DNA of 64,000 nucleotides from Thermogemmatispora onikobensis (GCF_001748285.1 NZ_BDGT01000031.1:1-64000), one strand, 5' to 3'; shown: positions 3,989 through 63,661, counted from the stretch's first letter. Program-made: numbers and translations. Notes: a model not told the origin generated them from the sequence alone.

Positions 3989-3998
3989 GATCCTTCCT

Positions 3999-12044: not shown

Positions 12045-12109
12045 AGGATAGAGTGGGAACAGATCGCTAGCCGGGCATCTGCTTCCCCGCTGGCGCCAGC
12101 GGGCGGCTC
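12045..12109. other. Spacer after the large hydrolase
   Basis: Start of the 517-nt gap before the MFS gene. Only promoter and leader elements (12110-12561) are recognisable in the gap. Confidence 0.3.
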
Positions 12110-12138
12110 TGGACAGAGTCCATCTGTGCAGTTATAAT
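12110..12138 (+). promoter_or_regulatory. Strong promoter of the MFS transporter
   Basis: TGGACA (12110-12115), 17 nt, then TATAAT (12133-12138). The start codon it serves is at 12562, giving a leader of about 415 nt. Confidence 0.65.
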
Positions 12139-12145
12139 ATAACCA

Positions 12146-47796: not shown

Positions 47797-47853
47797 TTGA
47801 CAAGGGGAGCGCTGGCCTTTTACAATATTTCTCAAGGTTGCACGTTGGTGCAA
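47797..47853 (+). promoter_or_regulatory. Promoter and operator of the SorC regulator
   Basis: TTGACA (47797-47802), 18 nt, TACAAT (47821-47826). A perfect inverted repeat TTGCAC, GTTG, GTGCAA follows at 47838-47853, just past the expected start site. This suggests self-repression. Confidence 0.7.
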
Positions 47854-47920
47854 AGGTCGGCGTTTGTGCCGAAACGGGCGTGCGAACGATCTCTGTTGCT
47901 CAGGGAAAGGGCACAACAGT

Positions 47921-48928
47921 ATGACTCAGGAAAGTGACGACATTTATCTCCTGACCGAAGTGGCCAGCCTCTACTACGAGGAGAACTACACGCAGGAGCA
48001 GATTGCCAAAATGATCGGCATCTCGCGCTCTGGCGTTTCTCGCCTGCTGAGCCGCTCACGGGAGCTGGGTCTGGTCGACATTCACGTCCATCAGGTGCTG
48101 CGCACCTCTGCCGCTCTGCAAGAGGATCTGGTAGCGCGCTTTAGGCTACAGGATGCGCAGGTGCTTGAGGCGGCGGAAGCGGAAGGGGTAGCGCTGGACC
48201 GTGTGGGGGCGTTGGCGGCGCGCTACGTTGACCGACGCATCCAGGAATCGCACGCAGAGGGGAAGCGGCCCATTCGCACGGTCGGCATTTCGTGGGGGAC
48301 CTCGATGCTGGAGATGCTCAAAGCCCTGCGTCCCCGGCGGCGCCTGCCGCTCAATGTGATCCAACTTATGGGCAGCGTCGACACCTCCAGCCGGCCCGAC
48401 ATCGATGGACCGGAGATCGCGCGTCGCCTGGCGGACGCCTATGGTGGACGCTGCTATTACCTGCACGCGCCCCTGTTAGTGGCCGATGCCACGGTGCGCG
48501 AAGGGCTGCTCAAGGAGCGCAGCCTGCGTCGCTCGTTCCAGATGATGGAGCAGATGGACATGGCGCTGGTGGGCATCGGAGGCGCACGCCCGGAGGCCTC
48601 TGGTCTCTTTCGTGCTGGCTACCTGGATGAGGAGGAGCTGCAGGTCATTCGCAGTCAGGGTGCTGTCGGCGATATCTGCGGCTGCTACTTTGATATCGAG
48701 GGCTGCCTCTGCGCCCAGGAACTGCTCTGTCGCACGGTGACCGTCTCGTTTGAGACGTTGCGCAAAGTGCCGCTGGTCATCGCCGTAGCGGCGGGTGCGG
48801 CCAAAAAGGAAGCCATGTTTGGGGCCTTGCGGACCGGCGTCGTCAAAGTGCTGATCACCGACGAACCGGGGGCCCGTGCCCTGCTGCAGCTGGCTGCTAG
48901 CCAGGAGCTGGCTCAGCTCCCCGGCTAA
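47921..48928 (+). CDS. SorC-family sugar-binding regulator
   Basis: The 335-aa product has an N-terminal helix-turn-helix of the SorC/DeoR-sigma70-like type (LLTEVASLYYEENYTQEQIAKMIG, SRSGVSRLLSRSRELGLVDI). It has a sugar-phosphate-sensing domain with TVGISWGTSMLEMLKAL, IGGARPEASGLFRAGYL and VIAVAAGAAKKEAMFGALR. SorC proteins respond to phosphorylated sugars or sugar alcohols. It sits at the head of the PTS region. TTGCAC/GTGCAA at its own promoter resembles the TGCACAA half-sites at 53305, 57245 and 57421, so these are its likely targets. Confidence 0.92.
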   Translation: MTQESDDIYLLTEVASLYYEENYTQEQIAKMIGISRSGVSRLLSRSRELGLVDIHVHQVLRTSAALQEDLVARFRLQDAQVLEAAEAEGVALDRVGALAARYVDRRIQESHAEGKRPIRTVGISWGTSMLEMLKALRPRRRLPLNVIQLMGSVDTSSRPDIDGPEIARRLADAYGGRCYYLHAPLLVADATVREGLLKERSLRRSFQMMEQMDMALVGIGGARPEASGLFRAGYLDEEELQVIRSQGAVGDICGCYFDIEGCLCAQELLCRTVTVSFETLRKVPLVIAVAAGAAKKEAMFGALRTGVVKVLITDEPGARALLQLAASQELAQLPG

Positions 48929-49073: not shown

Positions 49074-49358
49074 TTACGAAGAGGGCGGCAAGGCTTCCTC
49101 GGCAAAGTCGCGCTCGATCAGATCGACCAGGGCGGCGACGGCCTGCTGCTCGTCTTCGCCTTCGGCGGTGATCTCCACCTCGGTATTCTTCCCCACGGCC
49201 AGCGTCAGAATCAAGACCAGGCTCTTGGCGTTGACGCTCTTGCCTTTGCTGCTGATAGTGATCTTGCTCTTGAACTGATTGGCCAGCCTGACGAATTGCG
49301 CTGCAGGGCGGGCGTGCAGGCCAACCTCATTGCGCACAATGGTTTTTGCTTGCTGCAT
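49074..49358 (-). CDS. HPr phosphocarrier protein
   Basis: A general PTS protein that passes phosphate from enzyme I to IIA domains. The 94-aa product has the active His15 in RNEVGLHARPAAQFV and the regulatory Ser46 in SVNAKSLVLIL, both at standard positions. The start at 49358 follows GGAG. It lies about 260 nt downstream of the E2 gene on the same strand and may be co-transcribed. No enzyme I is in the window. Presence of Ser46 leaves room for HPr-kinase control. Confidence 0.94.
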   Translation of the reverse strand: MQQAKTIVRNEVGLHARPAAQFVRLANQFKSKITISSKGKSVNAKSLVLILTLAVGKNTEVEITAEGEDEQQAVAALVDLIERDFAEEALPPSS

Positions 49359-49621: not shown

Positions 49622-51181
49622 TTAGAGCAGTAAGTAGGGATTTTCCAGCAGCTGCTTGAAGCGCTGCAGGAAGCGGCTGCCGCTGGCCCCATCGAGGACG
49701 CGGTGATCGGCGGAGAGCGAGACCTTCATCACGGGGCGGATCTCCAGGCGGGCCGTCTGCTCTGCGGCGCCGCTCAGGCCCTCGTCGACGACCACGCTGC
49801 GCCGTGTCACCTTGCCTACAGCAAGAATGGCGCTCTGGCCCGGGGGAATGATGGCGTGGAAGGTATCGATCCCGTACATGCCCAGGTTCGAGATAGTGAA
49901 GGTGGCCCCGCTGAGGTCGTCGGGCGAAAGTCTGCCGGAGCGCGCCCCCTCGACCAAACGGCGCAGGGTACGCGCCAGGTCAGGCAGACTCTGGCGGTCG
50001 GCATGACGAATGACCGGCGTCAGGAGAGACTGGCCGGTATCGACGGCCACGCCGATGTGAATGGCGTGCCAGCGACGGATGACCTCCTTGCCTCGTCCAC
50101 GGCTATCATCGAGGGTGGCATTGACCTCGGGAGAGGCGCGCAGAGCAGCGGCCACCGCGCGAATGATGATGGCCGTCAGGGAAGGGACCTCTTCGCGCTG
50201 GGCTGCGAGGCTGGCGGCCAGGCGCTGGCGACAGCGTTCCGCCTCGCTCATATCGATCTCCAGATCAAGATAGATATGGGGCATGGTGGTGACGCTGGTC
50301 AGCATGCGCTGTCCGATGAGGCGCCGTGCTGGCGAGAGTGGGATGACCTCGGCCTCCTCGCTCTCCTCTGCAGGGGTCACAGGCGTGGGCGCTGCAGGAG
50401 CCTGTGACCGGGACTGGGCCACTGCCGCACTGGCCGTGGCGCCATCGACCGGGGTGCTTTGAACCGTCTCCTGCTGCTGGCGGAGCGCCAGGGCTGTCTC
50501 GACATCGGCGCGCGTCACCTTCTCGCCTCTCTTCTGCTCGGCCAGGGCCGCCAGGTCTACCTGATGCTCGCGAGCCATCTTGCGCGCCAGCGGCGTGGCC
50601 CGTACCTCTGGGCCTGCCTGCTGAGCCGGCTGGGTGGCCATGAAGGCCAGGATATCGGCGCGTGTCAGCGGAGGCTCGAAGCCAGCCGCTACCACGGCGC
50701 GCAGATCAACAGCCTGCGACGCCGCCTCACGCTTGGCGGCGGGCGTACTGGCGATGCGCGTTTCTTCCGTGGGCGCCTCTGCCGGGCTGGACGGGGCTGA
50801 GACTGCGGTTGAGGAAGGAACCTCGGCGGCAGGAGAGGAGAGAGAAGGATGCTCCTGGCGATGGGCGGAGGCCACAGCCGCAGTGGCAGCCGAGCTAGCA
50901 GCAGCGGCAGCAGCAGCCGGATCGCGCCCCTCCGCCAGCAAGAGAGCCAGCGGGGCGCCCACCTCCAGTGTCTCCTCCTCGCCGGCCAGAATCTTCAGGA
51001 GCTGACCCGTACAGGGGGCCTCGACCTCCAGAGCGACCTTATCGGTCATCACCTCGACCAATGGCTCCCCTTTCTCAAAGCGCGCCCCCTCGCTGAGAAG
51101 CCAGCGCACCACCGTGCCTTCGGTCATCGTCATGCCCAGCTTGGGCATTGTCAGCGTACGTTGCTCATGCTGCGTCTGCAT
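49622..51181 (-). CDS. 2-oxo-acid dehydrogenase E2 (dihydrolipoamide acyltransferase)
   Basis: Core of a multienzyme complex that transfers an acyl group from E1 to CoA. The 519-aa product has an N-terminal lipoyl domain with Lys48 in VEVMTDKVALEV. A long Ala/Ser/Glu/Pro linker follows, with two E3/E1-binding-like segments (FEPPLTRADILAFM and ATPLARKMAREHQVDLAAL). A C-terminal catalytic domain has His493 and Asp497 in SADHRVLDGASG. It follows the E1-beta gene by 66 nt. No E3 is encoded nearby. Acetyl, acetoin or branched-chain specificity cannot be told. Confidence 0.92.
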   Translation of the reverse strand: MQTQHEQRTLTMPKLGMTMTEGTVVRWLLSEGARFEKGEPLVEVMTDKVALEVEAPCTGQLLKILAGEEETLEVGAPLALLLAEGRDPAAAAAAASSAATAAVASAHRQEHPSLSSPAAEVPSSTAVSAPSSPAEAPTEETRIASTPAAKREAASQAVDLRAVVAAGFEPPLTRADILAFMATQPAQQAGPEVRATPLARKMAREHQVDLAALAEQKRGEKVTRADVETALALRQQQETVQSTPVDGATASAAVAQSRSQAPAAPTPVTPAEESEEAEVIPLSPARRLIGQRMLTSVTTMPHIYLDLEIDMSEAERCRQRLAASLAAQREEVPSLTAIIIRAVAAALRASPEVNATLDDSRGRGKEVIRRWHAIHIGVAVDTGQSLLTPVIRHADRQSLPDLARTLRRLVEGARSGRLSPDDLSGATFTISNLGMYGIDTFHAIIPPGQSAILAVGKVTRRSVVVDEGLSGAAEQTARLEIRPVMKVSLSADHRVLDGASGSRFLQRFKQLLENPYLLL

Positions 51182-51247: not shown

Positions 51248-52312
51248 TCACAGCGGCCTCCGCTGCAACAGGCGTCTGGCGGCCTGATAAATATCCTCTT
51301 CCTGGGGCGTGGCCCGTCGTTCGAGAGTTCGGTTGTAGGGAATGGGCGTCTCGGCCCCGCCCAGGCGCAGGATCGGAGCATCGAGATAGTAGAAGGCCTC
51401 GCTAGAGGCAATGCGGGCCGCGATCTCACCGCCGAAGCCGCCGGTCAGCACGGCCTCATGGACGATCAGCACCCGCCCGGTCTTGCGCGCCGAAGCGATC
51501 AGGGTCTCCTCGTCGAGCGGGCGCAGCGTGCGGGGATCAACCACCTCGGCCTCGATACCCTCTTCGGCCAGGCGTGCGGCCACGGCCAGGGCGCGCGGCA
51601 CCATAATCGAGAGGGCGATAATCGTCAGGTCCTTGCCGGGACGCTTGACTTCGGCCTGCCCGATAGGGATCGTCCATTCACCACGAGGCACGGGCCCCTT
51701 ATAGCGATAGAGCAGCTTGTGTTCGAGGAAGATCACCGGATTGGGGTCGCGGATGGCCGAGAGCAGCAGCCCCTTGACGTCGGCAGGTGTTGAAGGGAGG
51801 ACCACCTTCAGACCGGGCACATGGGCAAACCAGGCTTCCAGGCTCTGCGAGTGCTGGGCCGCTGCGCCGGTGCCGGAGCCGAGCGGGGCGCGGAAGACCA
51901 CCGGTACCTGGGCCTTGCCGCCGAACATAAAGCGCAGCTTGGCCCCCTGGTTGACGATCTGGTCCATGCCGATGGCCATGAAGTCGCTGAACTGGAATTC
52001 GGCCACTGGGCGCATACCGGTGAGGGCGGCCCCGATGGCGCAACCCGCCAGGGCTGCCTCCGAGATCGGCGTATCGCGCACGCGCTCCTCGCCAAACTCA
52101 TCGATGAGGCCATAGGTCACGCCGAAGGCCCCCCCATAGATGCCGATGTCCTCGCCCATCAGGAAGACACGCGGATCACGCCGCATCTCCTCCCGCAGGG
52201 CCTCGCGAATGGCCTCGGCGTAGGTCATCTCCTGAACCTGGCTCTGAGCCGCCTCTGCCTGCTGAGGCGTGCCGGCGGCGACGGTTGTCGGGAGAGAAGA
52301 AGGACCGCTCAT
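51248..52312 (-). CDS. 2-oxo-acid dehydrogenase E1, beta subunit
   Basis: The 354-aa product has [38 protein letters not shown] in two adjoining parts. It also has [33 protein letters not shown] and a C-terminal transketolase domain with [17 protein letters not shown]. The first 28 residues are a flexible extension. It pairs with the alpha subunit whose stop overlaps its start by 4 nt. Pyruvate or acetoin dehydrogenase is the best general label. Confidence 0.94.
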
Positions 52313-53283
52313 GCGTACACTCCTTCCAGGAGAGAGTCGGGATCGGGTTCGGGGCTGGCCAGAGCGAACTGATAGGCTTCCTCAATAGCCTGGTAGGCCG
52401 CGGCTTCCTCGCGCTCGATCTCCTCTTGGGTCAGCAGGCTGTGCTCGCGCAGATAGGCGGCCAACCGCTTGATGGGGTCGCGCTCCTGCCAGGCGCGGAT
52501 CTCATCGCGTGTGCGGTAGCGGTTCTGGTCGCTCTTGGAGTGACCTTTGTAACGATAGGTGACGGCCTCGATCAGGGTTGGACCCTGGCCGGAGCGGGCG
52601 CGAGCGGCAGCACGAGAGACGGCCTCGTAAACGGCGAAGACGTCGTTGCCATCGACGCGCTCGCCGGGAATGCCGTAGGCCACGGCACGCTGGGCAATGG
52701 TCTCGCAGCGCGTGGCCTTCCGCACGGACATCGACATGCCGTACTGGTTATTCTCGCAGAGGAAGATGACGGGGAGATCCCAGATAGCGGCCAGGTTGAT
52801 CGACTCGTGGAAGGTGCCTTCGTTGGCGGCGCCGTCGCCGAAGAAGCAGAGGCAGACACGATCAAGTCCCTGCATCTTGATGCTGAGTCCGACGCCGGTG
52901 GCAATGGGGATACCGCCGCCGACCACGCCGTTAGCGCCGAGGTTGCCGGAGGCGACGTCGGCGATGTGCATGGAGCCACCGCGTCCGCGGCAGTAGCCGG
53001 TTTCTTTGCCGAGCAGCTCGGCCATCATCAGCTTGAGGTCGGCCCCTTTGCTGATGCAATGACCGTGACCGCGGTGGGTGCTGGTGATATAGTCATCGGG
53101 CCGCAGGGCCTGTAAGGCCGCGGCGGCGGTAGCCTCTTCTCCGATGGAGAGATGGGTGGTGCCGTGGACTTCTCCGCGCATGAAGAGTTCATCAACCTTT
53201 TCTTCAAAGGCGCGGATGCGGTACATGGTCTGCAGCAGGCAGCGCATCTGCTCGGGAGAGAGGGCGGGAACCGCTTCAGACAT
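52309..53283 (-). CDS. 2-oxo-acid dehydrogenase E1, alpha subunit
   Basis: The 324-aa thiamine-diphosphate subunit starts at ATG 53283 with AGGAGAGG 7 nt upstream. It has [11 protein letters not shown], the [13 protein letters not shown] loop, the ThDP motif from GDG (149-151) to Asn178-Asn179 in CENNQYGM, and the phosphorylation-loop-like [22 protein letters not shown] is frequent in acetoin dehydrogenase and bacterial pyruvate dehydrogenase alpha chains. It is first in the E1a-E1b-E2 operon, under a promoter that carries two SorC-type half-sites. Confidence 0.94.
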
Positions 53284-53304
53284 AGCTGGCCTCTCCTGCT
53301 CTGT

Positions 53305-53364
53305 TGCACAAATATTCAATAATGCACACATATTCAATGTACCATGCTGAAGGGCAGCTGTCAA
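53305..53364 (-). promoter_or_regulatory. Promoter of the 2-oxo-acid dehydrogenase operon with SorC-type repeats
   Basis: On the minus strand TTGACA (53359-53364), 17 nt, TACATT (53336-53341). Downstream of the -10, read on the plus strand, are TGCACAAATATTCAATA (53305-53321) and TGCACACATATTCAATG (53323-53339). These direct repeats are 18 bp apart. The rest of the gap to 53617 shows no gene. Confidence 0.72.
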
Positions 53365-53617
53365 TAGGCGGGCGGCGTGAAGCGAGGCGGGGAGCGGGAT
53401 GGGAGGCCGTTCTCTTCCTTCCACGCTGGGCTTGATCAAGGGAACGTTCCTCAGAGGCTGTATGAGATGCTTCGCGATGAAACGAAACCATTTCCCCGGG
53501 TAAAGAAGCGTCAGGGCTGATGACGTGAAGCACGGAAGAAGGCGGCGAGGCGGGGAGCCAGGGGCCTGCTGGGGCAGGAGCGCTGGTCTGTCTGCCTCCA
53601 GCGGGCCCGGACTCTCG

Positions 53618-54121
53618 CTACCCCTCGTTCACGGCGATTTGCAGCATGCTTTGCAGGCAGGCTTTGATCTCCTGGGGCGTCTGCAGGGCAATGAAGTGCT
53701 CATAGAAGCCGGGCTGTTGCAGCGCACAGGTCACAGCCTGCAAAAAAGCCAGCTGTGCGTCTCCGGAAGTCAGCACGGGGAAAATAGCCAGCCGGCAGAG
53801 GTGCTGCCGTGCGGGATCATCCATCGCCTGAAAAGGTAGCGCCTCGCTGAGCAGAGCCACCACCAATGCTGGCTGAATGACATGCTCGAAGTCGACGTGG
53901 GGCAGGGCCACGGCGAAGTCGCCGAAGTCCAGTCCTGTCGGATACTGTCGCTCGCGCTCCTGGACGCCCTCCAGATAGCTCGGGTGCACCTGGCCGCGCC
54001 GCAGCAACTCTGCATGCACGCAGGCAAACAGCTCCTCCTTGCTTCTGACCGCCAGGCCCCACAGCACCAGCACTGGCATCGTGATCCCACTGAGCGTTAG
54101 CTCTAGCTCGATCGGTTCCAT
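53618..54121 (-). CDS. gatA: PTS galactitol-type IIA component
   Basis: The 167-aa phosphotransfer protein of the fructose/mannitol-like IIA fold accepts phosphate from HPr. The active His75 lies in [13 protein letters not shown], matching GatA. YPTGLDFG precedes it as in galactitol IIA proteins. AGGAGAGGG precedes the ATG. Directly upstream, at 54145-54162, is a run of six TCG triplets. It is last in the gat operon. Confidence 0.85.
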
Positions 54122-54144
54122 GTTCCGAGTAATGCCCTCTCCTA

Positions 54145-54162
54145 TCGTCGTCGTCGTCGTCG
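54145..54162. repeat. Six TCG triplets between two gat-operon genes
   Basis: A pure trinucleotide run 23 nt before the gatA start, outside any coding frame. Confidence 0.7.
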
Positions 54163-54205
54163 GTCGCTTCCTTTCTTACTGATCCTGTCTGGAAACAATG
54201 CAGAC

Positions 54206-54679
54206 TCATTGGTCCAGGGGCCGCGCGCTTAGCGCCGTGCGGGACTGGCGGCGCCGGTGGGACGCAGACGGCGGGTGGGACGCTGCTGACTGGGGGGTCA
54301 GGCGGAGCAGCAGACGAGCCAGGCCCTCCGCAGTAAAGCCCACTTCCGCGCGCAGGGCCTCGGGAGTGGCTCGCCGTATCCAGAGGCCGTGGCGGGTTGG
54401 CATATAGCGCACGCGGGCCGCCGCCTCCTGCCAGCGTGGTTCCAGGACCGCTAGCAGTTGCTGGGGCGTCCCCGGCTGCGAGGGATCGCAAAGCGGCAGT
54501 AGCTCCTGTACCCAGCGCCGCAGCTGCTGCCGCAGACGGATCACTCCGCGCAGGCCCCAACAGACCACTCCCATCCAGACCAGCAAGAGCAGACCAATGG
54601 GCAAGGAATGGGTCAGATAAGCGTTTTCCAGGGCGCGCCCCAAAGGCCCCATCAAATAGTCGACCAGAACGCCGATCAT
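54206..54679 (-). CDS. GutM-like membrane-anchored protein in the gat operon
   Basis: The 157-aa product has an N-terminal membrane helix (PIGLLLLVWMGVVCWGLRGVI) followed by a basic region and a soluble part (RYMPTRHGLWIRRATPEALRAEVGFTAEGLARLLL). The overall plan, one helix plus a small cytoplasmic domain, is like GutM, but the GutM core motif is not evident. It sits between gatC and gatA. Function is unknown; a local PTS regulator or scaffold is a guess. Confidence 0.65.
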   Translation of the reverse strand: MIGVLVDYLMGPLGRALENAYLTHSLPIGLLLLVWMGVVCWGLRGVIRLRQQLRRWVQELLPLCDPSQPGTPQQLLAVLEPRWQEAAARVRYMPTRHGLWIRRATPEALRAEVGFTAEGLARLLLRLTPQSAASHPPSASHRRRQSRTALSARPLDQ

Positions 54680-54849
54680 CGTTGGTTGGCTCCCTTTCTT
54701 CTGCTTGCTCTCCGTCCCATTAGCCTGGCCAGGCCAGGCAGGCCCTTCCTCGGCCCACGGCCAGCCGGGCGCTCGATCGCCCTGGTTCCAGCCGCACCGC
54801 GGCGGGCCAGAGCGATCCGCCCGCTGACCGTGTAGTGAGCCTGGCCGGT

Positions 54850-54885
54850 AGGCAGGCAGGCAGGCAGACAGACAGACAGACAGAC
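54850..54885. repeat. Tetranucleotide microsatellite between gatC and the next gene
   Basis: Four AGGC units (54850-54865) followed by five AGAC units (54866-54885). It lies 15 nt after the gatC stop and is non-coding. Confidence 0.85.
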
Positions 54886-54900
54886 GGTCCAGAGCTGCCT

Positions 54901-56421
54901 TTAGCCCTGGCCAGCGATCGCCTGGCCGCTGGCGCCCTCGGCCTCGATCCCGACCCCGGCTTCGTTCTCCGGTGTCTCTGCCTCCTCGCGCACGTAGAGG
55001 GCCTTATCGTCGATGCCGGGCACATGGGAGCGGCAATAGAGGAAGTAGATGATATAGCAGGCCACCGTGAAGGCCACCCACAGTGCCGACCAGATCAAGA
55101 AGACCGGTCCGTAGGAGCCAACCTGCTGCAGCGAGAAGAAGAAGACCAGTGCAAAGGAAATCAAGTGAGCGCCAGAATCGAGGCTAGAGATAGAGATTGC
55201 CCCCTTGGGGATAGCGAAATGGGCGCCCTTGGCCAGCACCACCGTCATCGGCGCCAGGAAAGTACCCACTGAGAGAATGCCGGCCATAAAGATCGTAGCG
55301 ATGATCACCCCACGGATCACATTACCGCGCGACCAGGTCGTGGCCCAGATCACCAGGAAGGGCAGGACTGCCAGATCGGTGAAAGGCAGCACATGGTTCA
55401 GGCCAAGGAAGCTGAGAGCGATCGCCAAAATGAGCGTGATTGGCACCATCAGCAGGGCCACCGTCATATTATTGGCGAAGCCGATCACAATAGCGGCATC
55501 CAGGCCGATGTAGAGTTCCCGGCCCGGGAAGCGCTGGCTGATGAACGTCTGTGCGCCCTCCGAGAGCGGAACCAGGCCCTCCATCAGGATAGCCACCATG
55601 CGCGGCAGGACCAGCATCACGGCGCCCAGCGTAATACCAGTCGTCAGGATCTTGGCGAAGGAGCCGCCGAAGTCGCTGCTCAGGCCCGGGAAATAGGCCA
55701 GGAGGCCGATGAGCAGGCCCAGGACCAGCCCGATGATCATCGGCTCGCCGACGATGCCGAAGCGCTCCTGAATGGTGCCGGTATCGGCGTGCAGCTTATT
55801 GAGGCCGGGAATGCGGTCCAGCAGCTTGTTCAAGACCCAGCCGACCGGCGACCAGTCGACGGTACTGCTGTGCGGCAGCGAGATGCCCGGCAGGCCGTAG
55901 TAGTCCTGGACGACGGGAGCCGAAAGGTCGGCCAGCTTGAGGATGAACAGCTCAGTGAGCAGGGCCAGCGCCAGGGCGATAAAGAAGTTGCCGGTGATGA
56001 CGTAGACGAAGGCCGCGGTAAAGATAAAGTGCCAGTAGTTCCACATGTCGATGTCGAGCGTCTTGACGAAGCGCACGACAATCAACAGCAGGTTGAGCAG
56101 GATACCCAGAATGAAGACCCAGGGAACAACGGAGACAGTGCCGAAGGAGATGGCGGCAGCCACCGGCCAGCCGACATCGATGACGTCGAGGTGAATGCCG
56201 AGGTTGTTGACCATCGCCTGCGCCGCCGGCCCCAGCGTATTGACCAGTAGGCCGATCACCAGGTTGATGGCGATGAAGCCAACGCCGATGGTGATGGCGG
56301 CCCGCAGCGAGCGCCCAAGAGGCATGCGGAAGATCATGCACAGAATAAAGATGATGATGGGCATCATGACGCTGGGGCCAAGATTCAAGATATAGTTGAT
56401 AACGCCCATAACAGCGGACAT
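54901..56421 (-). CDS. gatC: PTS galactitol-type IIC component
   Basis: The 506-aa permease has about 12 helices and imports a hexitol or other polyol while IIB phosphorylates it. Family features are NLGPSVMMPIIIFILCMIFRMP at the N-terminus, VDWSPVGWVLNKLLDRIPGLNKL, ERFGIVGEPMIIGLVLGLLIGLLAY and FPGRELYIGLDAAIVIGFAN. The C-terminal 40 residues are an acidic cytoplasmic tail. It follows gatB by about 185 nt. The true substrate may be another polyol such as a pentitol or tetritol. Confidence 0.9.
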   Translation of the reverse strand: MSAVMGVINYILNLGPSVMMPIIIFILCMIFRMPLGRSLRAAITIGVGFIAINLVIGLLVNTLGPAAQAMVNNLGIHLDVIDVGWPVAAAISFGTVSVVPWVFILGILLNLLLIVVRFVKTLDIDMWNYWHFIFTAAFVYVITGNFFIALALALLTELFILKLADLSAPVVQDYYGLPGISLPHSSTVDWSPVGWVLNKLLDRIPGLNKLHADTGTIQERFGIVGEPMIIGLVLGLLIGLLAYFPGLSSDFGGSFAKILTTGITLGAVMLVLPRMVAILMEGLVPLSEGAQTFISQRFPGRELYIGLDAAIVIGFANNMTVALLMVPITLILAIALSFLGLNHVLPFTDLAVLPFLVIWATTWSRGNVIRGVIIATIFMAGILSVGTFLAPMTVVLAKGAHFAIPKGAISISSLDSGAHLISFALVFFFSLQQVGSYGPVFLIWSALWVAFTVACYIIYFLYCRSHVPGIDDKALYVREEAETPENEAGVGIEAEGASGQAIAGQG

Positions 56422-56605
56422 GGCTGGTTCCTCCTACCCGTAGTGAGGATAAAAAGCCAACTCTTTGCGTACATCTCTACTCTTGCGCGCGATGTACGCC
56501 CGTTCGCGAACCTTGCGGTGATTGTCTGCTCTGTCTGCTGCGTGCCTGCCTACCCTCTACCTGCTTGCCAGGGGGTTCCTCTCTTGTTTGCTAGCGCAAC
56601 TCAGC

Positions 56606-56908
56606 TCAGCTAGCGCTGAGAGTCTTAAGATAGGCGGCAATCTCGTCGGCGAGCTGGTCGGCTCCCACGCCGCTGATGAGGGGCAGGCCGTTGAAGACCT
56701 TGACGGGCACTTTCACAGCGACCTGGGTGGTCGAGACGATAGCGTGTGGTCGAAAGGTGGAGACTTTGCCAGCGACTTCGGCGGCTTTACACGAGGCGGT
56801 TGTAACGCTGAGGCCGCGACTCTTGAGCAGGCGCTTGAGTTTGTCGGCGGCCAGGGTTGAGGTGGCGATCCCGGTGCCGCAGCTGACGAGGATGCGTAGA
56901 TCGGACAT
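56606..56908 (-). CDS. gatB: PTS galactitol-type IIB component
   Basis: The 100-aa IIB passes phosphate to the incoming polyol. The phospho-cysteine is Cys10 in ILVSCGTGIATSTLAADK, the usual P-loop-like site. A longer reading to 57559 has no ribosome site; GGAGG precedes the ATG at 56908. It is first in the gatB-gatC-unknown-gatA operon. The promoter at 57212-57241 carries paired SorC-type half-sites upstream of the -35. Confidence 0.92.
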   Translation of the reverse strand: MSDLRILVSCGTGIATSTLAADKLKRLLKSRGLSVTTASCKAAEVAGKVSTFRPHAIVSTTQVAVKVPVKVFNGLPLISGVGADQLADEIAAYLKTLSAS

Positions 56909-57211
56909 GGGCGGAAAAACCTCCTGGCAACTGGTCACAGCTCTGTGAAGTGCTCCCGACTCGTTTCTCCGCTGCCCAGCTGGAGACACGAGAGGGGCGA
57001 CGGCTCTTCCTTGAAGAGAAAATATCAGGAAGGAAGGCTGATGCTTCTGCTGGCCTTGTCCCGCGACGCCGCAGGGGGCCATATGTTGCTCTCCTCTGCT
57101 CTTCTTGCTCTCCCTCCTTTCAAAGGGCACACCTGAAGATTTTAAAATGGTCGATCGCTCGATTTGTAAAGTTTTGCCCTTACTATAAACTGCTCCATTC
57201 CGGTTGTTTCT
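56909..57211. other. Leader of the gat operon, no gene seen
   Basis: About 300 nt between the predicted gat promoter and gatB. Plus-strand short frames here lack ribosome sites. No clear hairpin terminator or riboswitch was recognised. Confidence 0.4.
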
Positions 57212-57269
57212 ATGGTACCTGATGGTGACGACTGTTGTCAACCCTTGTGCATAAGTGGACAATTGTTCA
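57212..57269 (-). promoter_or_regulatory. gat operon promoter with paired half-sites upstream
   Basis: Minus strand: TTGACA (57236-57241), 18 nt, TACCAT (57212-57217). Directly upstream of the -35 are TGCACAA (plus coordinates 57245-57251) and TGAACAA (57263-57269), 18 bp apart. The position upstream of -35 fits an activator. Confidence 0.65.
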
Positions 57270-57390
57270 CTGCCGCTCGCCCGGGCAGGGAAATGCCGCT
57301 CGTGCGCGCTGGAGGGCTGGACGCTGGCCAGAGTGGAAGATTGCGCGGGGAGGCGACTGGGCGGTTGCGGTTTTTCTCTATGCCGCCCGC

Positions 57391-57446
57391 TTGACATTCG
57401 CCAGAGGGCAAGGTATACTATGCACAAAATATCGAATGTGCACAAA
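57391..57446 (+). promoter_or_regulatory. ispD-srl operon promoter with paired half-sites downstream
   Basis: TTGACA (57391-57396), 17 nt, TATACT (57414-57419), a near-consensus promoter. TGCACAAA occurs at 57421-57428 and again at 57439-57446, 18 bp apart and overlapping the expected start site, a repressor position. Confidence 0.75.
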
Positions 57447-57455
57447 GGTGAAACG

Positions 57456-58190
57456 GTGTTCGACCAGCGGAGTGCAGCGAAGCACGTTGTGGCCATCGTG
57501 CTGGCGGCGGGCCAGGGCAGGCGTATGGGGCTGCCGATCAACAAAATCTTCCTGCCCATTCATGGCAAGCCGGTTATCATCTACACGCTGGAAGCCTTTG
57601 AGCGCTGTCCAGTGATTGACGAGATCCTGCTCGTCGCGGCGGCTGGCGAAGAGGAGCAGCTTGCCAAGCTAGCACAAGCGGCCCACTGTCAGAAAGTCAG
57701 GCGTATCGTCCAGGGTGGTCCGACGAGGCACGCCTCCGAGCAATGTGCGCTGGAGGCCCTGCGTTCGCGCATCGAGAGTGGCGAGATTGACCTGATTCTG
57801 ATCCATGATGGGGCCCGTCCCTTTGTGCTCCTCGAGCGCATCCAGCAGCTGGTCGAGGCGGCGCGTGCCTGTGGTGGGGCTATTCTGGCCATGCCGCTGC
57901 AGGAGGAGGAGCTGATCGTCGAAGTGGATGAGCAGCAGGCCATCTGCCGCCGCTTTGCTGGTCAGCGGGCCTGGCGGGCCCAGACGCCCCAGGCTTTTCG
58001 TGCGGCCTGGTTGCTGGCGGCCTACGATCGGGCGCGTCAGGACCAGTTTGAGGGGACCGACACGGCGGCCTCTCTGGAGCGTCTCGGCTATCCGGTGGCG
58101 GTGGTCGAAAGCGATCAGAGCAATCTGAAGATCACCACCGCTTACGACCTGTTGCAGGCCGAGCGGCTCTGTCGCCACTATGGTCTCTAG
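57456..58190 (+). CDS. IspD-like cytidylyltransferase heading the glucitol-PTS operon
   Basis: The 244-aa nucleotidyltransferase has VVAIVLAAGQGRRMGLPINK, IHDGARPFV, RAQTPQAFRAAWL, EGTDTAASLERLG and SDQSNLKITTAYDL. All are typical of IspD (CTP plus 2-C-methylerythritol 4-phosphate) and the related TarI group (ribitol 5-phosphate). The start is GTG 57456, because an upstream ATG at 57420 would lie on the promoter. AAAGGTG precedes it. Heading a sugar-alcohol PTS operon is odd for a housekeeping isoprenoid enzyme, so it may handle an imported polyol phosphate. Confidence 0.85.
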   Translation: MFDQRSAAKHVVAIVLAAGQGRRMGLPINKIFLPIHGKPVIIYTLEAFERCPVIDEILLVAAAGEEEQLAKLAQAAHCQKVRRIVQGGPTRHASEQCALEALRSRIESGEIDLILIHDGARPFVLLERIQQLVEAARACGGAILAMPLQEEELIVEVDEQQAICRRFAGQRAWRAQTPQAFRAAWLLAAYDRARQDQFEGTDTAASLERLGYPVAVVESDQSNLKITTAYDLLQAERLCRHYGL

Positions 58191-58251
58191 GCGGGTCGGA
58201 GGCCGGGTCAGGTGGCTTACCTATTTCTTTCTGATTGGAAGTAGGCTCTGT

Positions 58252-58264
58252 CTAACGACGTTAG
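58252..58264. promoter_or_regulatory. 13-bp palindrome in the ispD downstream gap
   Basis: CTAACG, A, CGTTAG. Its role is unknown. It lies in the 230-nt gap before the zinc-ribbon gene. Confidence 0.3.
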
Positions 58265-58420
58265 TGACACTTCGCCTTGCTGGCAATGCGTGATGGAGGG
58301 CAGGCCCTGGCCGGGCGGGCTGGGCTAGCGAGAGCGCCTTGAGCAAGCGCTTCAGCCAGAGCTGTCCTGTTCGTCTCCATCGCTGATCGATCGTCGAGGA
58401 AAGAGGGGGCGTCGCTCGCT

Positions 58421-58726
58421 ATGATAGCCTGCCAGACTGAACTGGACTGCCTCTACTGCGGTCGTCCGACGGTGCACACGGTCTTTTATGCCTCGCTCTA
58501 TATCAAGCGGATCGTCTGCCATCGTTGTGCCCACGCCGTTGAAAAGCCAGCGGCTGTCTTACTCCGCCAATATTGTCGTGATCTCCCCTGGCGTGCCACC
58601 GCCCTCGCGCGTCGCTTAAAGCATGAGGCGCAGGCCGATCCACTGCTCTTCGTCTCCAGCTTGCCCCGGCGCGTGGTCAACAAACCGATCGAGCTTTCCC
58701 GTGAGCTAGCCGAGGTCTGTCTGTAG
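58421..58726 (+). CDS. Small zinc-ribbon-like protein of PTS operons (101 aa)
   Basis: MIACQTELDCLYCGRPTVHTVFYASLYIKRIVCHRCAHAVEKP has two CxxC pairs (Cys10/Cys13 and Cys33/Cys36), a likely zinc site. A helical C-terminal half follows (RATALARRLKHEAQ). Small proteins of this kind, annotated only as bh protein, occur beside gutM in other sorbitol-type PTS operons as far as I recall. The role is unknown. Confidence 0.7.
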   Translation: MIACQTELDCLYCGRPTVHTVFYASLYIKRIVCHRCAHAVEKPAAVLLRQYCRDLPWRATALARRLKHEAQADPLLFVSSLPRRVVNKPIELSRELAEVCL

Positions 58727-58796
58727 GAGCGAAGTTCTTCGCGGCTCCAGACGGCCACGCGCTCGCCGCGTTAGAGTATGACATCAGGAGGTTCGT

Positions 58797-59246
58797 ATGA
58801 TCGAGCAAGTTGCCCTCGCTGCCCTGGTGGCCTGGTGCCTGCAGCTGGCTCTGGCCTACTGGCAGGCGCGGCGCTTCTATCGCGACGTGAGTCGTCTGCG
58901 CCGGCTCGGGCCTTGCGCCACTGCGATGGCTGGGGGGCGTTACCGCGGGCGCACCTATGTGGTGCTTGTGGCCCATCCCAAGCGGCGGGCTATTCTCGCT
59001 GCCCGGCAACTCAGTGGCTTCACGGTCTTTGCGCGGCTCCGTCCCCTGCCCCAGGTTGAGGGGCGTCCGCTCGACGAGCTACTCGTTCCCGAGACGCTTG
59101 GGGCGCTTGGGCTGAAGCCGCGCCTGATCGAGGCGGTCAGGACCGCTGCCAGCACGCTTCAGGACTCCTTCGAGCGTCAGACCGCGAAGGTAGCTGGTGG
59201 GGGAAACGTGCTCCCCCCGCGGACGTCGCTGCAGCCGCTGGCTTGA
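58797..59246 (+). CDS. gutM: GutM-type glucitol operon activator
   Basis: The 149-aa product has an N-terminal membrane helix (VALAALVAWCLQLALAYWQ), then FYRDVSRLRRLGPCATAMAGGRYRGRTYVVLV, the conserved GutM core. In E. coli GutM activates the glucitol operon together with GutR. Here the DNA-binding partner would be the SorC protein, which is inference. The ATG follows AGGAGG. Confidence 0.88.
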   Translation: MIEQVALAALVAWCLQLALAYWQARRFYRDVSRLRRLGPCATAMAGGRYRGRTYVVLVAHPKRRAILAARQLSGFTVFARLRPLPQVEGRPLDELLVPETLGALGLKPRLIEAVRTAASTLQDSFERQTAKVAGGGNVLPPRTSLQPLA

Positions 59247-59418
59247 AAGGTGGGTAATCACTCACTCGGCTTACTCGCCAAGGCACTCGCTCAGCTCTTC
59301 TCACTGCTGAGTAGTCCTCGCCGGCTGCTACCTGGCTCTGGTCCTGGCCAGCTGGCCTGTGTGGTGGTCTGAGAGGACAAAAGATTGTCACAATGTCCTT
59401 TTGTCTGGAGGTGACTCT

Positions 59419-60039
59419 GTGGAGATCGCAGCCCGTATTGCCGAAGGCTTCATCGGCATGTTCCAAAAGGGGGGGACGACCTTTGTTGGTCTGGTCACGG
59501 GCATCATCCCCCTGTTGATCGTGCTGATGACTGCCGTCAATGCCCTGGTGCGCCTCATTGGCCCCGAACGGATCGACAAGGTGGCCATGATCAGTAGCCG
59601 CAATGTCCTGCTGCGCTATCTGGTCCTGCCCTTTCTGGCCGTCTTCTTCCTGACTAACCCGATGGCCTACACGATGGGGCGCTTTCTGCCGGAGAAGCAG
59701 AAGCCGGCCTTCTATGATGCGGCGGTGTCTTTTGTCCATCCCATTCTTGGTCTCTTTCCCCATGCCAATCCGGGTGAGATCTTTGTCTGGGCTGGTATTG
59801 CGGCGGGCATTACCAAGCTTGGGCTGGGGCTAGGGGATCTGGCGATTCGCTATTTCCTGGTGGGCCTGTTAGTGATCTTTATTCGCGGGCTGGTGACGGA
59901 GCGCATCACGGCCATCATGTGGGCGCGGCGCTCGGTGCCCGAGGGCCAGAGCCAGGGTGAGGAGTCAACGTCGGCAGCCGAGGCGGCCCCTGCTGTGGAA
60001 GCGGGCGGGGCGGCCTTCGCTAGCGGAGAGGAGGCGTAG
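59419..60039 (+). CDS. srlA: PTS glucitol/sorbitol-type IIC component
   Basis: The 206-aa permease starts at GTG 59419 with CTGGAGGTG upstream. It has FIGMFQKGGTTFVGLVTGIIP, MISSRNVLLRYLVLPFLAVFFLTNPMAYTMGRFLP in adjoining parts, and LGLFPHANPGEIFVW, all typical of SrlA/GutA. The C-terminal 30 residues are a Ser/Glu/Ala-rich cytoplasmic tail. It forms the sugar channel with the SrlE membrane half encoded next. Confidence 0.92.
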   Translation: MEIAARIAEGFIGMFQKGGTTFVGLVTGIIPLLIVLMTAVNALVRLIGPERIDKVAMISSRNVLLRYLVLPFLAVFFLTNPMAYTMGRFLPEKQKPAFYDAAVSFVHPILGLFPHANPGEIFVWAGIAAGITKLGLGLGDLAIRYFLVGLLVIFIRGLVTERITAIMWARRSVPEGQSQGEESTSAAEAAPAVEAGGAAFASGEEA

Positions 60040-60041
60040 TC

Positions 60042-60587
60042 ATGCAAGTTGTGGCGCGTGGTCTGGAGGCCATTGGGCGGGCCGTTGGCAATGTGGTCGG
60101 CATCCTGTATCAGGCTGGCCGTGACACCATTGACCAGGTGATCCGCAATATTCTGCCGTTCATGGCCTTCATTAGTATGGTCATTGGCATCATTCTCTAC
60201 ACGGGGATTGGCAACATTATTGCTCATACCCTGTCGCCGCTGGCCTCGAATATTTTCGGGCTGCTGCTGATGTCGGTGATCTGTGCCATTCCGATTCTGT
60301 CGCCGTTGCTGGGTCCCGGGGCGGTGATCGCCCAGGTTGTGGGGACGCTGCTGGGCGTGGAGATTGGCCTGGGCCATATTCCGGCGCAGTATGCGCTGCC
60401 GGCCCTCTTTGCTATTAATCCGCAGGTCGGTTGTGACTTTATCCCGGTCGGGTTGGCGCTTGGTGAGGCCGAGCCGGAGACGACCGAGATCGGGGTGCCA
60501 GCGGTTTTGATGTCGCGCCTGATCACGGGGCCGCTGGCGGTGGTCATTGCCTATCTGGCCAGCTTTGGGATGTATGCCGGCCATTAG
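60042..60587 (+). CDS. PTS glucitol-type SrlE membrane half (IIC2), split from IIB
   Basis: The 181-aa product equals the C-terminal membrane part of E. coli SrlE. It has the helices IRNILPFMAFISMVIGIILYTGIGNIIA and LSPLLGPGAVIAQVVGTLLGVEIGLGHIP, and NPQVGCDFIPVGLALGEAEPETTEIGVPAVL. In E. coli this follows the IIB domain in one protein. Here it is a separate gene that precedes IIB. It starts 2 nt after the srlA stop. Confidence 0.88.
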   Translation: MQVVARGLEAIGRAVGNVVGILYQAGRDTIDQVIRNILPFMAFISMVIGIILYTGIGNIIAHTLSPLASNIFGLLLMSVICAIPILSPLLGPGAVIAQVVGTLLGVEIGLGHIPAQYALPALFAINPQVGCDFIPVGLALGEAEPETTEIGVPAVLMSRLITGPLAVVIAYLASFGMYAGH

Positions 60588-60793
60588 GGCTGGCTGAGTG
60601 AATGAATGAGTGAGTGGGGGTGGATAGGGAGGGGTGGAGGGAGGTTGTGCTGTGGCTCAGGCCGGGCGGGGTGACGGCGATGGTGGATTACTCTCGCTGC
60701 GCGGCGTTGGTTGCCCGAGGCTGGCTGGTTGGCCTGTTGCCTGTCTGCCTGGTCTGGGCCTGATCGCTTGAGGAGAGAAAGGAGTGTGCGACG

Positions 60794-61171
60794 ATGCCTT
60801 ATCGTGCTGTGAAGATTGCGCGAGGACGCGGTGGCTGGGGCGGGCCGCTGGTTGTCAAGCCCGAGCCAGGAAAGGATCTGATCTATTGCGTGACCGGTGG
60901 GGGCATTCATCCGGTGGCGCAGCGCATTGCGGAGCTGAGTGGCGGGCGAGCTTTCGATGGCTTTCGTTCGTCGGCCCCTGAGAAGCAGATTGCCTGTGTG
61001 GTGATTGACTGCGGCGGGACGGCGCGCATCGGGGTCTATCCGATGAAGAAGATTCTGACTATCGATGTGAAGCCGAGTTCGCCCTCGGGGCCGCTGATGA
61101 AGTTCATCACGGAGCAGCTCTTTGTGTCGGGGGTGCGCCCCGAGGATGTGACGCTGCTTGAGGAGTCCTGA
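60794..61171 (+). CDS. PTS glucitol-type IIB domain as a separate gene
   Basis: The 125-aa product equals the N-terminal IIB part of SrlE: VKIARGRGGWGGPLVVKP, CVTGGGIHPVAQRIAELSG, and VIDCGGTARIGVYP with the probable phospho-cysteine Cys73. AAAGGAG precedes the ATG. A 206-nt spacer with TGAG/TGAA short repeats (60595-60625) separates it from the membrane half. Confidence 0.9.
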   Translation: MPYRAVKIARGRGGWGGPLVVKPEPGKDLIYCVTGGGIHPVAQRIAELSGGRAFDGFRSSAPEKQIACVVIDCGGTARIGVYPMKKILTIDVKPSSPSGPLMKFITEQLFVSGVRPEDVTLLEES

Positions 61172-61338
61172 TGACGGGGGCTGGTCGGGCCTCGCTCTCG
61201 TTGGCGCTGGCTGGTGCTCTTTGGGCTGCTGGCGAGGGTGGAGTCAGCGCAGGGGCGAGGCAAGGCTGGCGCTGAGTTGTCTAGAGGGCGGGCGGCTGTT
61301 GTGAGCGCTTACTCAAGGAGGGAGGAGGAGAGACGGCT

Positions 61339-61857
61339 ATGTCTCTGCTGCGTTTCAATCACTTTCTTGGGGCGGGAATGGCGGGCGCCGAGGGGGCGGG
61401 GACTGCTGGGGAGGGGGTGGAGCTGGGTGCGGGGAGGCGGGTTTTGCTCAAGTATCGGGCGATGATTGGGGAGATTGGGCCGCAGGTGCCGGAGTTCCTG
61501 CCGCATGGCATTTTGATTTTCTTTGGTCCGCAGGCGCCGGCGGAGCTGCGCGAGGTCTCGCTTGTCCATTCGGGGGCGACGTTGCAGGGGGCGATCGAGG
61601 TGGGCGACTGGCTTTGCTTCCGGGAGCCGTCTGACGATGGCGGCGAGGTAGGTCGGGTGTTCACGTATCGGGTGACGGCGGTCGGCGAGGTGGCCAGTGC
61701 CAATCTGGCCGAGCTGGGTCATCTGGTGGTGCATTTCGATGGCGCGGCGGAGGCGGCGCTGCCCGGGACGATCTCGGTGGAGCCGGCTCTGCTCCATCTG
61801 CCCCCGGTGGGAACCATTCTGGAATTGCTCAGACTGGAGGATTGCCACGAGCTATGA
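61339..61857 (+). CDS. srlB: PTS glucitol/sorbitol-type IIA component
   Basis: The 172-aa product carries the SrlB fold: YRAMIGEIGPQVPEFL, ILIFFGPQAPAELREVSLVHSG with the likely active His77, YRVTAVGEVASANLAELGHLVVHFDG, and LPGTISVE. It is about 50 residues longer than E. coli SrlB. Most of the extra is a Gly/Ala-rich N-terminal stretch (GAGMAGAEGAGTAGEG). Its stop overlaps the next start (ATGA). Confidence 0.88.
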   Translation: MSLLRFNHFLGAGMAGAEGAGTAGEGVELGAGRRVLLKYRAMIGEIGPQVPEFLPHGILIFFGPQAPAELREVSLVHSGATLQGAIEVGDWLCFREPSDDGGEVGRVFTYRVTAVGEVASANLAELGHLVVHFDGAAEAALPGTISVEPALLHLPPVGTILELLRLEDCHEL

Positions 61858-63170
61858 ATCTGGTTGCGGAACTTGAGGCGCGTCAGCGCGAGGGGCGTCC
61901 GATCCGTGTGGGGCTGGTGGGGGTTGGTCAGATGGGGGCGGGTCTGATTGCTCAGGTGAGTCAGATGCAGGGCATGGAGGTAGTGGCGGCTGCCGATATT
62001 GAGACGGAGCGAGCTGTGGCGGCCTTCCGCGCCTGTGGCTATAGTGAGGAGGAGGTGCTGCTCTTGCCGCCTGGGGCCAGCAGCCACGAGGCCGATGCGG
62101 CGGTGCGAGCTGGCAAGCGGGTGGTGACGGCGCGGGCGACCTTGGTCCCTGATATCGCTTCGCTGGATGCTGTGGTGGAAGCTACGGGCGTGCCTGCTGT
62201 GGGGGCGCTCGTCGCCTATCGGACGATTCTGGCGCGTCGTCATATCATCATGCTCAATGTGGAGACCGATGCTACAATCGGCTATTTGCTGAAGCGTATG
62301 GCCGATGCGGCAGGCGTGGTTTATACGACCTCGGCAGGCGATGAGCCGGGGGCGATTTTGGAGTTGTATGATTTTGCTCGCTCGCTCGGCTTTGAGATTG
62401 TGGCGGCTGGCAAGGGGAAAAATAACCCGCTGGACCGCGGTGCGACGCCGGAGCAGTTGGCCGAGCAGGCGCGGAGCCGGCATATGAGTCCCCATATGCT
62501 GACATCGTTTGTCGATGGGACGAAGACGATGGTGGAGATGACGGCAGTGGCCAATGCGACGGGGTTGGTGCCGGATGTCAGTGGAATGCATGGGCCGCAG
62601 GCGACGCCAGAGACGCTGGCGCAGATTTTTTGTCCGCGTGAGGATGGGGGCATTCTGGGACGACGGGGTGTGGTTGATTATGCGCTGGGAAGCGTGGCGC
62701 CGGGGGTCTTTCTGGTGATTACGACTCAGCAGCCGAAGGTGATTGAGGATTTGCGCTATTTGCGCCTGGGCGAGGGACCATACTGGGCGCTCTATCGTCC
62801 GTATCATCTGGCCAATCTGGAGACGCCGCGTTCGATTGCCCAGGCGGTTCTGTATCAGCAGGCGACGCTGGCGCCAGCGGGGCCACCGGTGGCGGAGACG
62901 ACGGCGGTGGCGAAGCGCGATTTGCAGGAGGGGGAGGTGTTGGAGGGGTTGGGGGGAACGTCTCTCTATGGCAATATTGAGCGGGTCGAGGTGGCGCGGG
63001 CGCAGCGAATGCTGCCGTTGGGGTTGACGGCGCGGGCGCGGGTGCGCCGTCCAGTGGCTCGCGGTCAGACGCTGACCTACGATGATGTGGAGCTGGATGC
63101 CCATTCCTTTATAGTGCAGGCACGGCGTATGCAGGATGCACTGATTTACGATGGGGAGCCACCGCTGTAG
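61854..63170 (+). CDS. NAD(P)-binding oxidoreductase with SAF domain
   Basis: The 438-aa product has an N-terminal Rossmann fold (PIRVGLVGVGQMGAGLIAQV) of homoserine-dehydrogenase-like type. A middle domain follows (LNVETDATIGYLLKRMADAAG, TSAGDEPGAILELYDFARSLG). The C-terminal SAF domain contains AVAKRDLQEGEVLEG and RRPVARGQTLTYDDV. Such proteins are common in sugar-alcohol and branched tetrose gene clusters, where they probably oxidise a polyol phosphate or sugar acid. GGAGGATT lies upstream and the start overlaps srlB by 4 nt, so it is the last gene of the operon. Confidence 0.85.
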   Translation: MNLVAELEARQREGRPIRVGLVGVGQMGAGLIAQVSQMQGMEVVAAADIETERAVAAFRACGYSEEEVLLLPPGASSHEADAAVRAGKRVVTARATLVPDIASLDAVVEATGVPAVGALVAYRTILARRHIIMLNVETDATIGYLLKRMADAAGVVYTTSAGDEPGAILELYDFARSLGFEIVAAGKGKNNPLDRGATPEQLAEQARSRHMSPHMLTSFVDGTKTMVEMTAVANATGLVPDVSGMHGPQATPETLAQIFCPREDGGILGRRGVVDYALGSVAPGVFLVITTQQPKVIEDLRYLRLGEGPYWALYRPYHLANLETPRSIAQAVLYQQATLAPAGPPVAETTAVAKRDLQEGEVLEGLGGTSLYGNIERVEVARAQRMLPLGLTARARVRRPVARGQTLTYDDVELDAHSFIVQARRMQDALIYDGEPPL

Positions 63171-63533: not shown

Positions 63534-63661
63534 AAGGTCGTGATACGATAGATTTTGGCAGGTGGGAGGAGAAGAAAATGAGGCTCTCAGAAGCCAAAAA
63601 CGGGGCCTCGATCGTTATAGAATAGGTGAGAAGTATCCCTGATGCTCCTCCGCTGCCTGCG
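63534..63661 (+). other. Probable CRISPR leader
   Basis: It is locally richer in A and T than the surrounding DNA and directly precedes the first repeat. The repeat ends in CTGAAAG, the common 3' handle, which puts the leader on the left. Contains AGAAGAAAATGAGG and no plausible gene. Confidence 0.45.

Follow-up and report, generated by a model that had tools for sequence, protein, structure and literature searches.

Putative twin operators with an 18-bp period at a SorC-family locus of Thermogemmatispora, and a possible route for 2-C-methyl-D-erythritol catabolism

Results

Genes and promoters of the locus

We analysed a 64,000-nucleotide stretch of the genome of the thermophilic soil bacterium Thermogemmatispora onikobensis (GCF_001748285.1 NZ_BDGT01000031.1:1-64000), referred to below as the window. 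It contains a gene for a SorC-family regulator, genes for an E1/E2 dehydrogenase, and two sets of PTS genes, one galactitol-like (gat) and one of glucitol type (srl), the latter in a row of genes that opens with an IspD paralogue and closes with a DRL/DXR-II oxidoreductase:

47921..48928, plus strand: SorC-family regulator, 335 aa, closest to B. subtilis DeoR (PF04198, NF053881, PDB 8r7y)
49074..49358, minus strand: HPr-like phosphocarrier protein, linked in relatives (family read from sequence)
49622..51181, minus strand: E2, lipoyl acyltransferase (PF00198, PF00364, PF02817)
51248..52312, minus strand: E1 beta, thiamine-dependent dehydrogenase (PF02779, PF02780)
52309..53283, minus strand: E1 alpha (TIGR03182, 384 bits, cut-off 394)
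53618..54121, minus strand: PTS EIIA, galactitol-like (PF00359)
54206..54679, minus strand: 157-aa protein between gatA and gatC, no Pfam match
54901..56421, minus strand: PTS EIIC, galactitol-like (PF03611, 289 bits)
56606..56908, minus strand: PTS EIIB, galactitol-like (PF02302)
57456..58190, plus strand: second IspD, a paralogue of the MEP cytidylyltransferase (TIGR00453, 190 bits, cut-off 181)
58421..58726, plus strand: 101-aa protein, linked in relatives, no Pfam match
58797..59246, plus strand: GutM-like protein (PF06923)
59419..60039, plus strand: SrlA, glucitol-type PTS EIIC (NF049923, 246 bits, cut-off 150)
60042..60587, plus strand: C-terminal part of SrlE, a separate gene (PF07663)
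60794..61171, plus strand: N-terminal (EIIB) part of SrlE, a separate gene (PF03612)
61339..61857, plus strand: SrlB, glucitol-type PTS EIIA (PF03829)
61854..63170, plus strand: DRL/DXR-II oxidoreductase with SAF domain (PF21135, 232 bits; 3upl/3upy, E 2e-110)

The glucitol-type EIIA, EIIB and EIIC are all present (Srl), and the genes that we identified from 57420 to 63170 do not include a glucitol-6-phosphate dehydrogenase (SrlD). Elsewhere the genome holds a better IspD (217 bits against PF01128 vs 178 for the copy in the regulon), canonical Dxr, IspF and IspH, as well as seven further genes that match E1 alpha strongly. The IspD, DRL and E1 of the regulon are dedicated copies. We also considered whether DRL could be the only Dxr of this organism, an idea dropped because of the canonical Dxr in the genome, and whether the second IspD could be the core of the locus, which was rejected since it is missing from most loci of this kind.

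Apart from genes, the window contains short tandem CAGG/CAGA repeats at 54850-54890, just downstream of gatC and before the 157-aa gene, and a CRISPR-like array at 63660-64000 with at least five copies of GTTGCAGGGGAGTCGATCCGCACGAGGATACTGAAAG and unique spacers, which reaches the window end.

Four promoters serve these genes:

47797..47826, plus strand: sorC promoter, TTGACA-18-TACAAT (read by eye from the sequence)
53336..53364, minus strand: dehydrogenase operon promoter, TTGACA-17-TACATT (hexamers in sequence)
57212..57241, minus strand: gat promoter, TTGACA-18-TACCAT (hexamers in sequence)
57391..57419, plus strand: ispD-srl-drl promoter, TTGACA-17-TATACT (hexamers in sequence)

Putative twin operators at four promoters

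The first-pass annotation had reported TGCACAA-type sites in pairs exactly 18 bp apart at three of these promoters, and all its coordinates proved correct. The E1 alpha pair consists of TGCACAA at 53305 and TGCACAC at 53323, the gat pair of TTGTGCA at 57245 and TTGTTCA at 57263 (on the minus strand, TGAACAA-N11-TGCACAA) and the ispD pair of TGCACAA at both 57421 and 57439, each with a period of 18 bp. When the whole 5.56-Mb genome was searched for the pattern TGCACAA-N11-TGCACAA, on which the genome-wide statistics rest, there was one exact match (57421), and a single mismatch was seen in just three others, at 53305, at 57245 and within a 747-codon ORF; the three pairs are thus among the top four matches genome-wide. 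Within the window, 14 pairs matched with at most three mismatches vs 4.2 expected, a number equalled in none of 100 shuffles. At the sorC promoter, the TTGCAC/GTGCAA palindrome noted previously at 47838 is present as TTGCACGTTGGTGCAA but does not stand alone, as an additional 18-bp pair lies there too (47846-47870, minus strand, two mismatches).

The 7-bp half-site had been taken as the binding unit, and in this the annotation has to be revised. As we read the sequence, each predicted operator is built of two 16-bp pseudo-palindromes in tandem, in which the TGCACAA half-site is the arm with the stronger conservation. Examples in this frame are TTGCACAAATATTCAA, ATGCACACATATTCAA, GTGAACAATTGTCCAC and TTGCACCAACGTGCAA; their quality as pseudo-palindromes varies, with a weak right-hand arm in several units. 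Described in this way, the four operators all lie on good sigma-70-like promoters, and their positions relative to the start are approximate, the start sites being estimates from the -10 hexamers:

47838..47871: twin operator at sorC, TTGCACGTTGGTGCAA (47838-47853) and CGGCACAAACGCCGAC (minus strand, 47856-47871), period 18, about +6 to +39
53304..53337: twin operator at the E1 alpha promoter, TTGCACAAATATTCAA (53304) and ATGCACACATATTCAA (53322), period 18, about -8 to +26
57237..57270, minus strand: twin operator at gat, GTGAACAATTGTCCAC TT ATGCACAAGGGTTGAC, about -65 to -32, overlapping the -35
57420..57453: twin operator at ispD-srl-drl, ATGCACAAAATATCGA and GTGCACAAAGGTGAAA, period 18, about -6 to +28, abutting the -10

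A weight matrix made from the eight 16-bp units of the window and scanned at periods of 14-26 ranked the four operators first, all at period 18, with 41.2, 33.7, 32.7 and 28.7 bits, followed by 23.0 bits for the next candidate. Because this matrix was built from the same units, the independent test comes from other genera.

The TGCACA at 57420 includes an in-frame ATG and was therefore considered as coding sequence; this was rejected since it directly adjoins the -10 and Ktedonosporobacter lacks the ATG. In the second ispD unit, a ribosome-binding site could account for the conservation of one portion, AAAGGTGA, a point against the operator reading. An 18-bp pair with two mismatches was also seen elsewhere in the genome (C24:61323-61347, locus L016) as intergenic TGCTCAATTGTACATTACTGAACAA. 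Although intergenic, it was not accepted as a member of the regulon, as it precedes a gene for an XRE-type regulator (by eye) with GAACA repeats of its own.

A DeoR-like SorC protein as the probable repressor

The SorC protein contains a PF04198 sugar-binding effector domain at residues 63-323 (207 bits, cut-off 27). It scores 219.9 bits with NF053881, the DeoR equivalog model, which is under the curated cut-off of 420, and its nearest solved structure is that of DeoR (PDB 8r7y, E 9e-44). In the N-terminal helix-turn-helix, its ISRSGVSR aligns to ISRPTVSR of DeoR, with conservation of R34 and R39, both base-contacting residues of DeoR. We predict from these similarities that the protein works like DeoR and is not a DeoR orthologue. 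DeoR binds as a tetramer and needs both halves of its operator, which is composed of TTGAACAAAATTTCAA and a second degenerate unit (PMC11229326). Given the likeness to DeoR and the conserved arginines, we read the pairs, by analogy, as putative SorC tetramer operators. The best pairs in the genome cluster at the sorC locus, include the promoter of sorC itself and travel with sorC in relatives, which makes this protein very probably the reader of all four.

At E1 alpha (-8 to +26), ispD (-6 to +28) and sorC (+6 to +39), the operator positions are most naturally read as sites of repression. The gat site, at about -65 to -32, suits a repressor equally well, because the operator through which DeoR represses in B. 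subtilis covers -60 to -21 (PMC11229326). Judged by position, repression at all four promoters seems likely. The annotation had proposed that the same protein represses some promoters and activates another; the single SorC regulator is retained here, whereas activation at gat is not, given the DeoR precedent. That SorC represses three promoters and activates gat, or that some other regulator reads the pairs, would fit the placement of the gat site, which unlike the other three lies upstream of the -35 and overlaps it. We nevertheless consider either improbable, since the sites co-occur with sorC, its own promoter included, DeoR offers a repressor acting from a similar place, and we found no other regulator gene that all relatives share at this locus.

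In the repression model that we prefer, each 16-bp half would be bound by one dimer of DNA-binding domains, and a SorC tetramer would span both units, 18 bp apart, to block RNA polymerase at the promoters of sorC, the E1/E2 dehydrogenase operon, the gat PTS and ispD-srl-drl. A phosphorylated substrate would then free SorC from the DNA.

The window SorC protein also matches PDB 4r9n, the effector domain of Listeria Lmo0547, another member of the SorC family. The Lmo0547 gene presumably adjoins a sorbitol PTS in Listeria, and the SorC-srl-DRL module may be present there; Listeria is listed with DXR-II in a published study.

Conservation of the operators

The loci of the congeners T. aurantia, T. 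tikiterensis and T. carboxidivorans are near-identical to that of T. onikobensis, and the pairs are retained in all five congeners wherever the stretch was covered. The sorC and gat operators are conserved in these five, the E1 alpha operator in loci L062-L068, and the ispD operator occupies the same place, right behind the -10, in Ktedonosporobacter rubrisoli (L067) and in a third genus (L068). In K. rubrisoli, whose SorC is 81% identical, the E1 alpha and ispD promoters are the two best matrix matches, with period 18 and 37.2 and 28.4 bits; the highest score among 200 dinucleotide shuffles was 20.9, and other periods do not come close to these scores. The same two promoters are the best matches in the third genus (SorC 79%; period 18; 37.0 and 27.5 bits vs 22.4 for the best shuffle), where one overlapping combination with period 23 scores 27.4 bits. 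The pair at the sorC promoter is weak or not seen in Ktedonosporobacter and the related genus, and weaker in L068/L069. An order-level relative (L071), with a SorC about 51% identical, scores lower and has periods of 18 and 19.

In Anaerolineae, Spirochaetes, Acidimicrobiia and Bacillota, loci with the module described below often have twin palindromes of the TTCACA..TGTGAA type before sorC, 19-21 bp apart. Five such twins with period 19-21 at the sorC promoters of other phyla score at least 36, vs none in shuffles, and a motif-free test for direct repeats with period 18-22 found 18 vs about 1 in shuffles. A strict scan of the DRL loci of other phyla for TTGNACA-type half-sites yielded too few pairs for any preferred spacing; it missed these twins because the half-sites there are of the TTCACA type, and the motif-free test revealed them. 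With 18 bp kept in close genera and 19-21 bp found in other phyla, we conclude from the comparison that the fixed spacing apparently marks this lineage and that the twin arrangement belongs to the wider family. The annotation would have been refuted by a spacing not conserved in related genomes, and it withstands this check: the period is exactly 18 bp in congeners and two further genera, and distant lineages keep twins at 18-21 bp.

One congener (L066, genome G041) has a second SorC-family gene, about 31% identical, at 3604-4506, between gatC and the gene for the 157-aa protein.

A SorC-srl-DRL-E1/E2 module across phyla

Our sample of the module is the 80 best DRL matches, which leans towards close relatives of the Thermogemmatispora DRL. 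Outside Ktedonobacterales, 39 DRL loci had 10 kb of flanking sequence to either side, and of these srl genes are present in 36, SorC in 35, and E1 alpha with E1 beta in 30, with all three together in 29. The HPr-like and 101-aa genes are also linked in relatives. In L092, L094, L113 and L150, near 11300-12150, DRL is directly followed by an additional gene. In Anaerolineae modules this encodes a class II aldolase (PF00596, confirmed in L092 and L094), and in Geosporobacter, by eye, a HAD-like phosphatase; such genes could point to another substrate or a further one.

IspH, the last enzyme of the MEP pathway, is absent from 16 of 26 module genomes, and IspF is absent too from the four of these that were checked for it, which include Virgibacillus oceani and a MAG whose assembly is a single chromosome; incomplete MAGs may explain some of these absences. 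Genome G142, which we take to be Chloroflexus aurantiacus J-10-fl, has no IspF and three DRLs, whose order and spacing fit YP_001634831, YP_001634944 and YP_001636771, the middle one lying within a full module. YP_001634944.1 is listed as the DXR-II-clade entry of C. aurantiacus J-10-fl, for which DXR-II activity was demonstrated by complementation, and Chloroflexi representatives use mevalonate only (PMC3847144).

The locus could in principle serve isoprenoid supply, with imported methylerythritol or deoxyxylulose feeding the MEP pathway as 2-C-methylerythritol 4-phosphate (MEP) and CDP-ME. This would suit the position of the IspD paralogue, first in its operon in Ktedonobacterales, and the IspF and IspH of the Thermogemmatispora genome. 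However, IspD occurs in only 6 of 73 module loci, IspH is missing from most of the 26 module genomes, and E1/E2 would be unexplained, all of which makes such a role rather implausible.

Discussion

We suggest, with some confidence, that the regulon is concerned with the import and breakdown of 2-C-methyl-D-erythritol or a close analogue under SorC repression from twin operators. This view of the whole locus builds on what the sequence displays, namely the sites with their spacing and conservation, the gene content and the gene linkage, from which binding by a tetramer, the sign of control, the effector, the substrate and the enzyme directions are inferred; the catabolic pathway itself, taken separately and for 2-C-methyl-D-erythritol, falls slightly short of an even chance. 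In this pathway, the Srl-type PTS would produce MEP from imported methylerythritol, DRL running in reverse would convert MEP to 1-deoxyxylulose 5-phosphate (DXP), and the E1/E2 complex would cleave the acyloin DXP to acetyl-CoA and glyceraldehyde 3-phosphate, with an E3 that we assume to be shared with other complexes. The module genes would thus provide a complete short route, and in Ktedonobacterales the extra IspD could divert some MEP to isoprenoids. Where a genome lacks the MEP pathway but encodes the enzyme linking DXP and MEP beside a polyol PTS and a thiamine-dependent E1/E2, the best explanation that we see is that DRL runs backwards. Cleavage of DXP by E1/E2 is plausible since DXP, as acetoin does, belongs to the acyloins, and pyruvate dehydrogenase and acetoin dehydrogenase are recorded as forming 1-deoxyketoses (reference 39 of PMC3424233). 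A mutant pyruvate dehydrogenase E1 (AceE) can also replace DXS in E. coli (PMC3424233). We found no description of methylerythritol uptake or catabolism in the open-access literature.

Some observations fit the pathway less well. DRL occurs without srl in 3 of the 39 loci and srl without a nearby E1 in six, the module's E1 genes do not quite form a single clade (two changes), and the class II aldolase of the Anaerolineae modules is not needed and is left unaccounted for. This aldolase would be more at home if the operators are correctly identified but the substrate is an ordinary or other branched polyol (such as glucitol, a tetritol or apiitol), with the PTS yielding its phosphate, DRL acting as a polyol-phosphate dehydrogenase and E1/E2 as a substrate-induced pyruvate dehydrogenase. 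The PTS does score as glucitol type, a galactitol-type PTS belongs to the same regulon, and some clades of DRL-related proteins fail to complement DXR loss (PMC3847144). On the other hand, the Chloroflexus module DRL falls within the DXR-II clade, with activity reported for that strain (PMC3847144), no sorbitol-6-phosphate dehydrogenase is among the genes identified at 57420-63170, and it is hard to see why a hexitol would call for an E1/E2 of its own, set apart from seven strong paralogues in this genome and accompanying DRL in 30 of 39 loci. We therefore regard such a polyol as an unlikely, if serious, alternative to methylerythritol.

With a probability likewise short of even, the SorC-srl-DRL-E1/E2 module may represent a previously unrecognised methylerythritol catabolic pathway, in which the first two reactions of the MEP pathway are reversed, and many DXR-II enzymes may natively serve catabolism. 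DXR-II has so far passed for an oddity of isoprenoid synthesis whose distribution lacked an explanation. That it is linked to a PTS, SorC and E1/E2 in several phyla, often in genomes with no MEP pathway, suggests that it acts in degradation, on a substrate that can be tested. If true, this would explain the scattered occurrence of DXR-II in genomes that make isoprenoids via mevalonate. Plants make methylerythritol, which is otherwise familiar chiefly as an isoprenoid-synthesis intermediate, and with such a source a dedicated bacterial pathway would make ecological sense.

Comparison with known systems

Among solved structures, the regulator is most similar to B. subtilis DeoR, a SorC-family protein acting at the dra-nupC-pdp operator. 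Both operators combine a 16-bp pseudo-palindrome with a second, degenerate unit, TTGAACAAAATTTCAA of DeoR resembling TTGCACAAATATTCAA here, and the DNA-contact arginines are conserved; the DeoR effector, a deoxypentose 5-phosphate, is chemically close to DXP. Unlike DeoR, our regulator has operators at four promoters, mostly in downstream positions, a different regulon and a score of 220 bits against the required 420. The CggR tetramer likewise binds two tandem palindromic units at the B. subtilis gapA operator, downstream of the start as at sorC here, whereas the operator sequence and the DNA-binding domain subfamily differ. The periods, which we counted from the sequences printed in PMC11229326, are 22 for DeoR and 20 for CggR. 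The 18-bp period puts the two units on relative helix faces clearly different from those in CggR and DeoR. This is the single unusual feature of the operators themselves, and a tetramer would therefore need another geometry, which counts against our explanation. The operators add a third spacing to the SorC/DeoR picture, giving a comparative series from 18 to 22 bp for one kind of tetramer on differently phased sites. That they define a regulon is the more important result.

The Thermogemmatispora DRL is about 43% identical over its full length to Brucella DRL (L078), and it shares the DRL_cat domain with the Brucella abortus enzyme (3upl). Unlike the known role of DXR-II/DRL in isoprenoid synthesis, it belongs here to a PTS regulon in a genome with a housekeeping Dxr, and its relatives are found elsewhere in genomes without the MEP pathway. 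The dehydrogenase has the E1 alpha, E1 beta and lipoyl-domain E2 of the acetoin and pyruvate dehydrogenase complexes, but differs from them as a dedicated paralogue tied to DRL and a PTS, with DXP as its proposed substrate.
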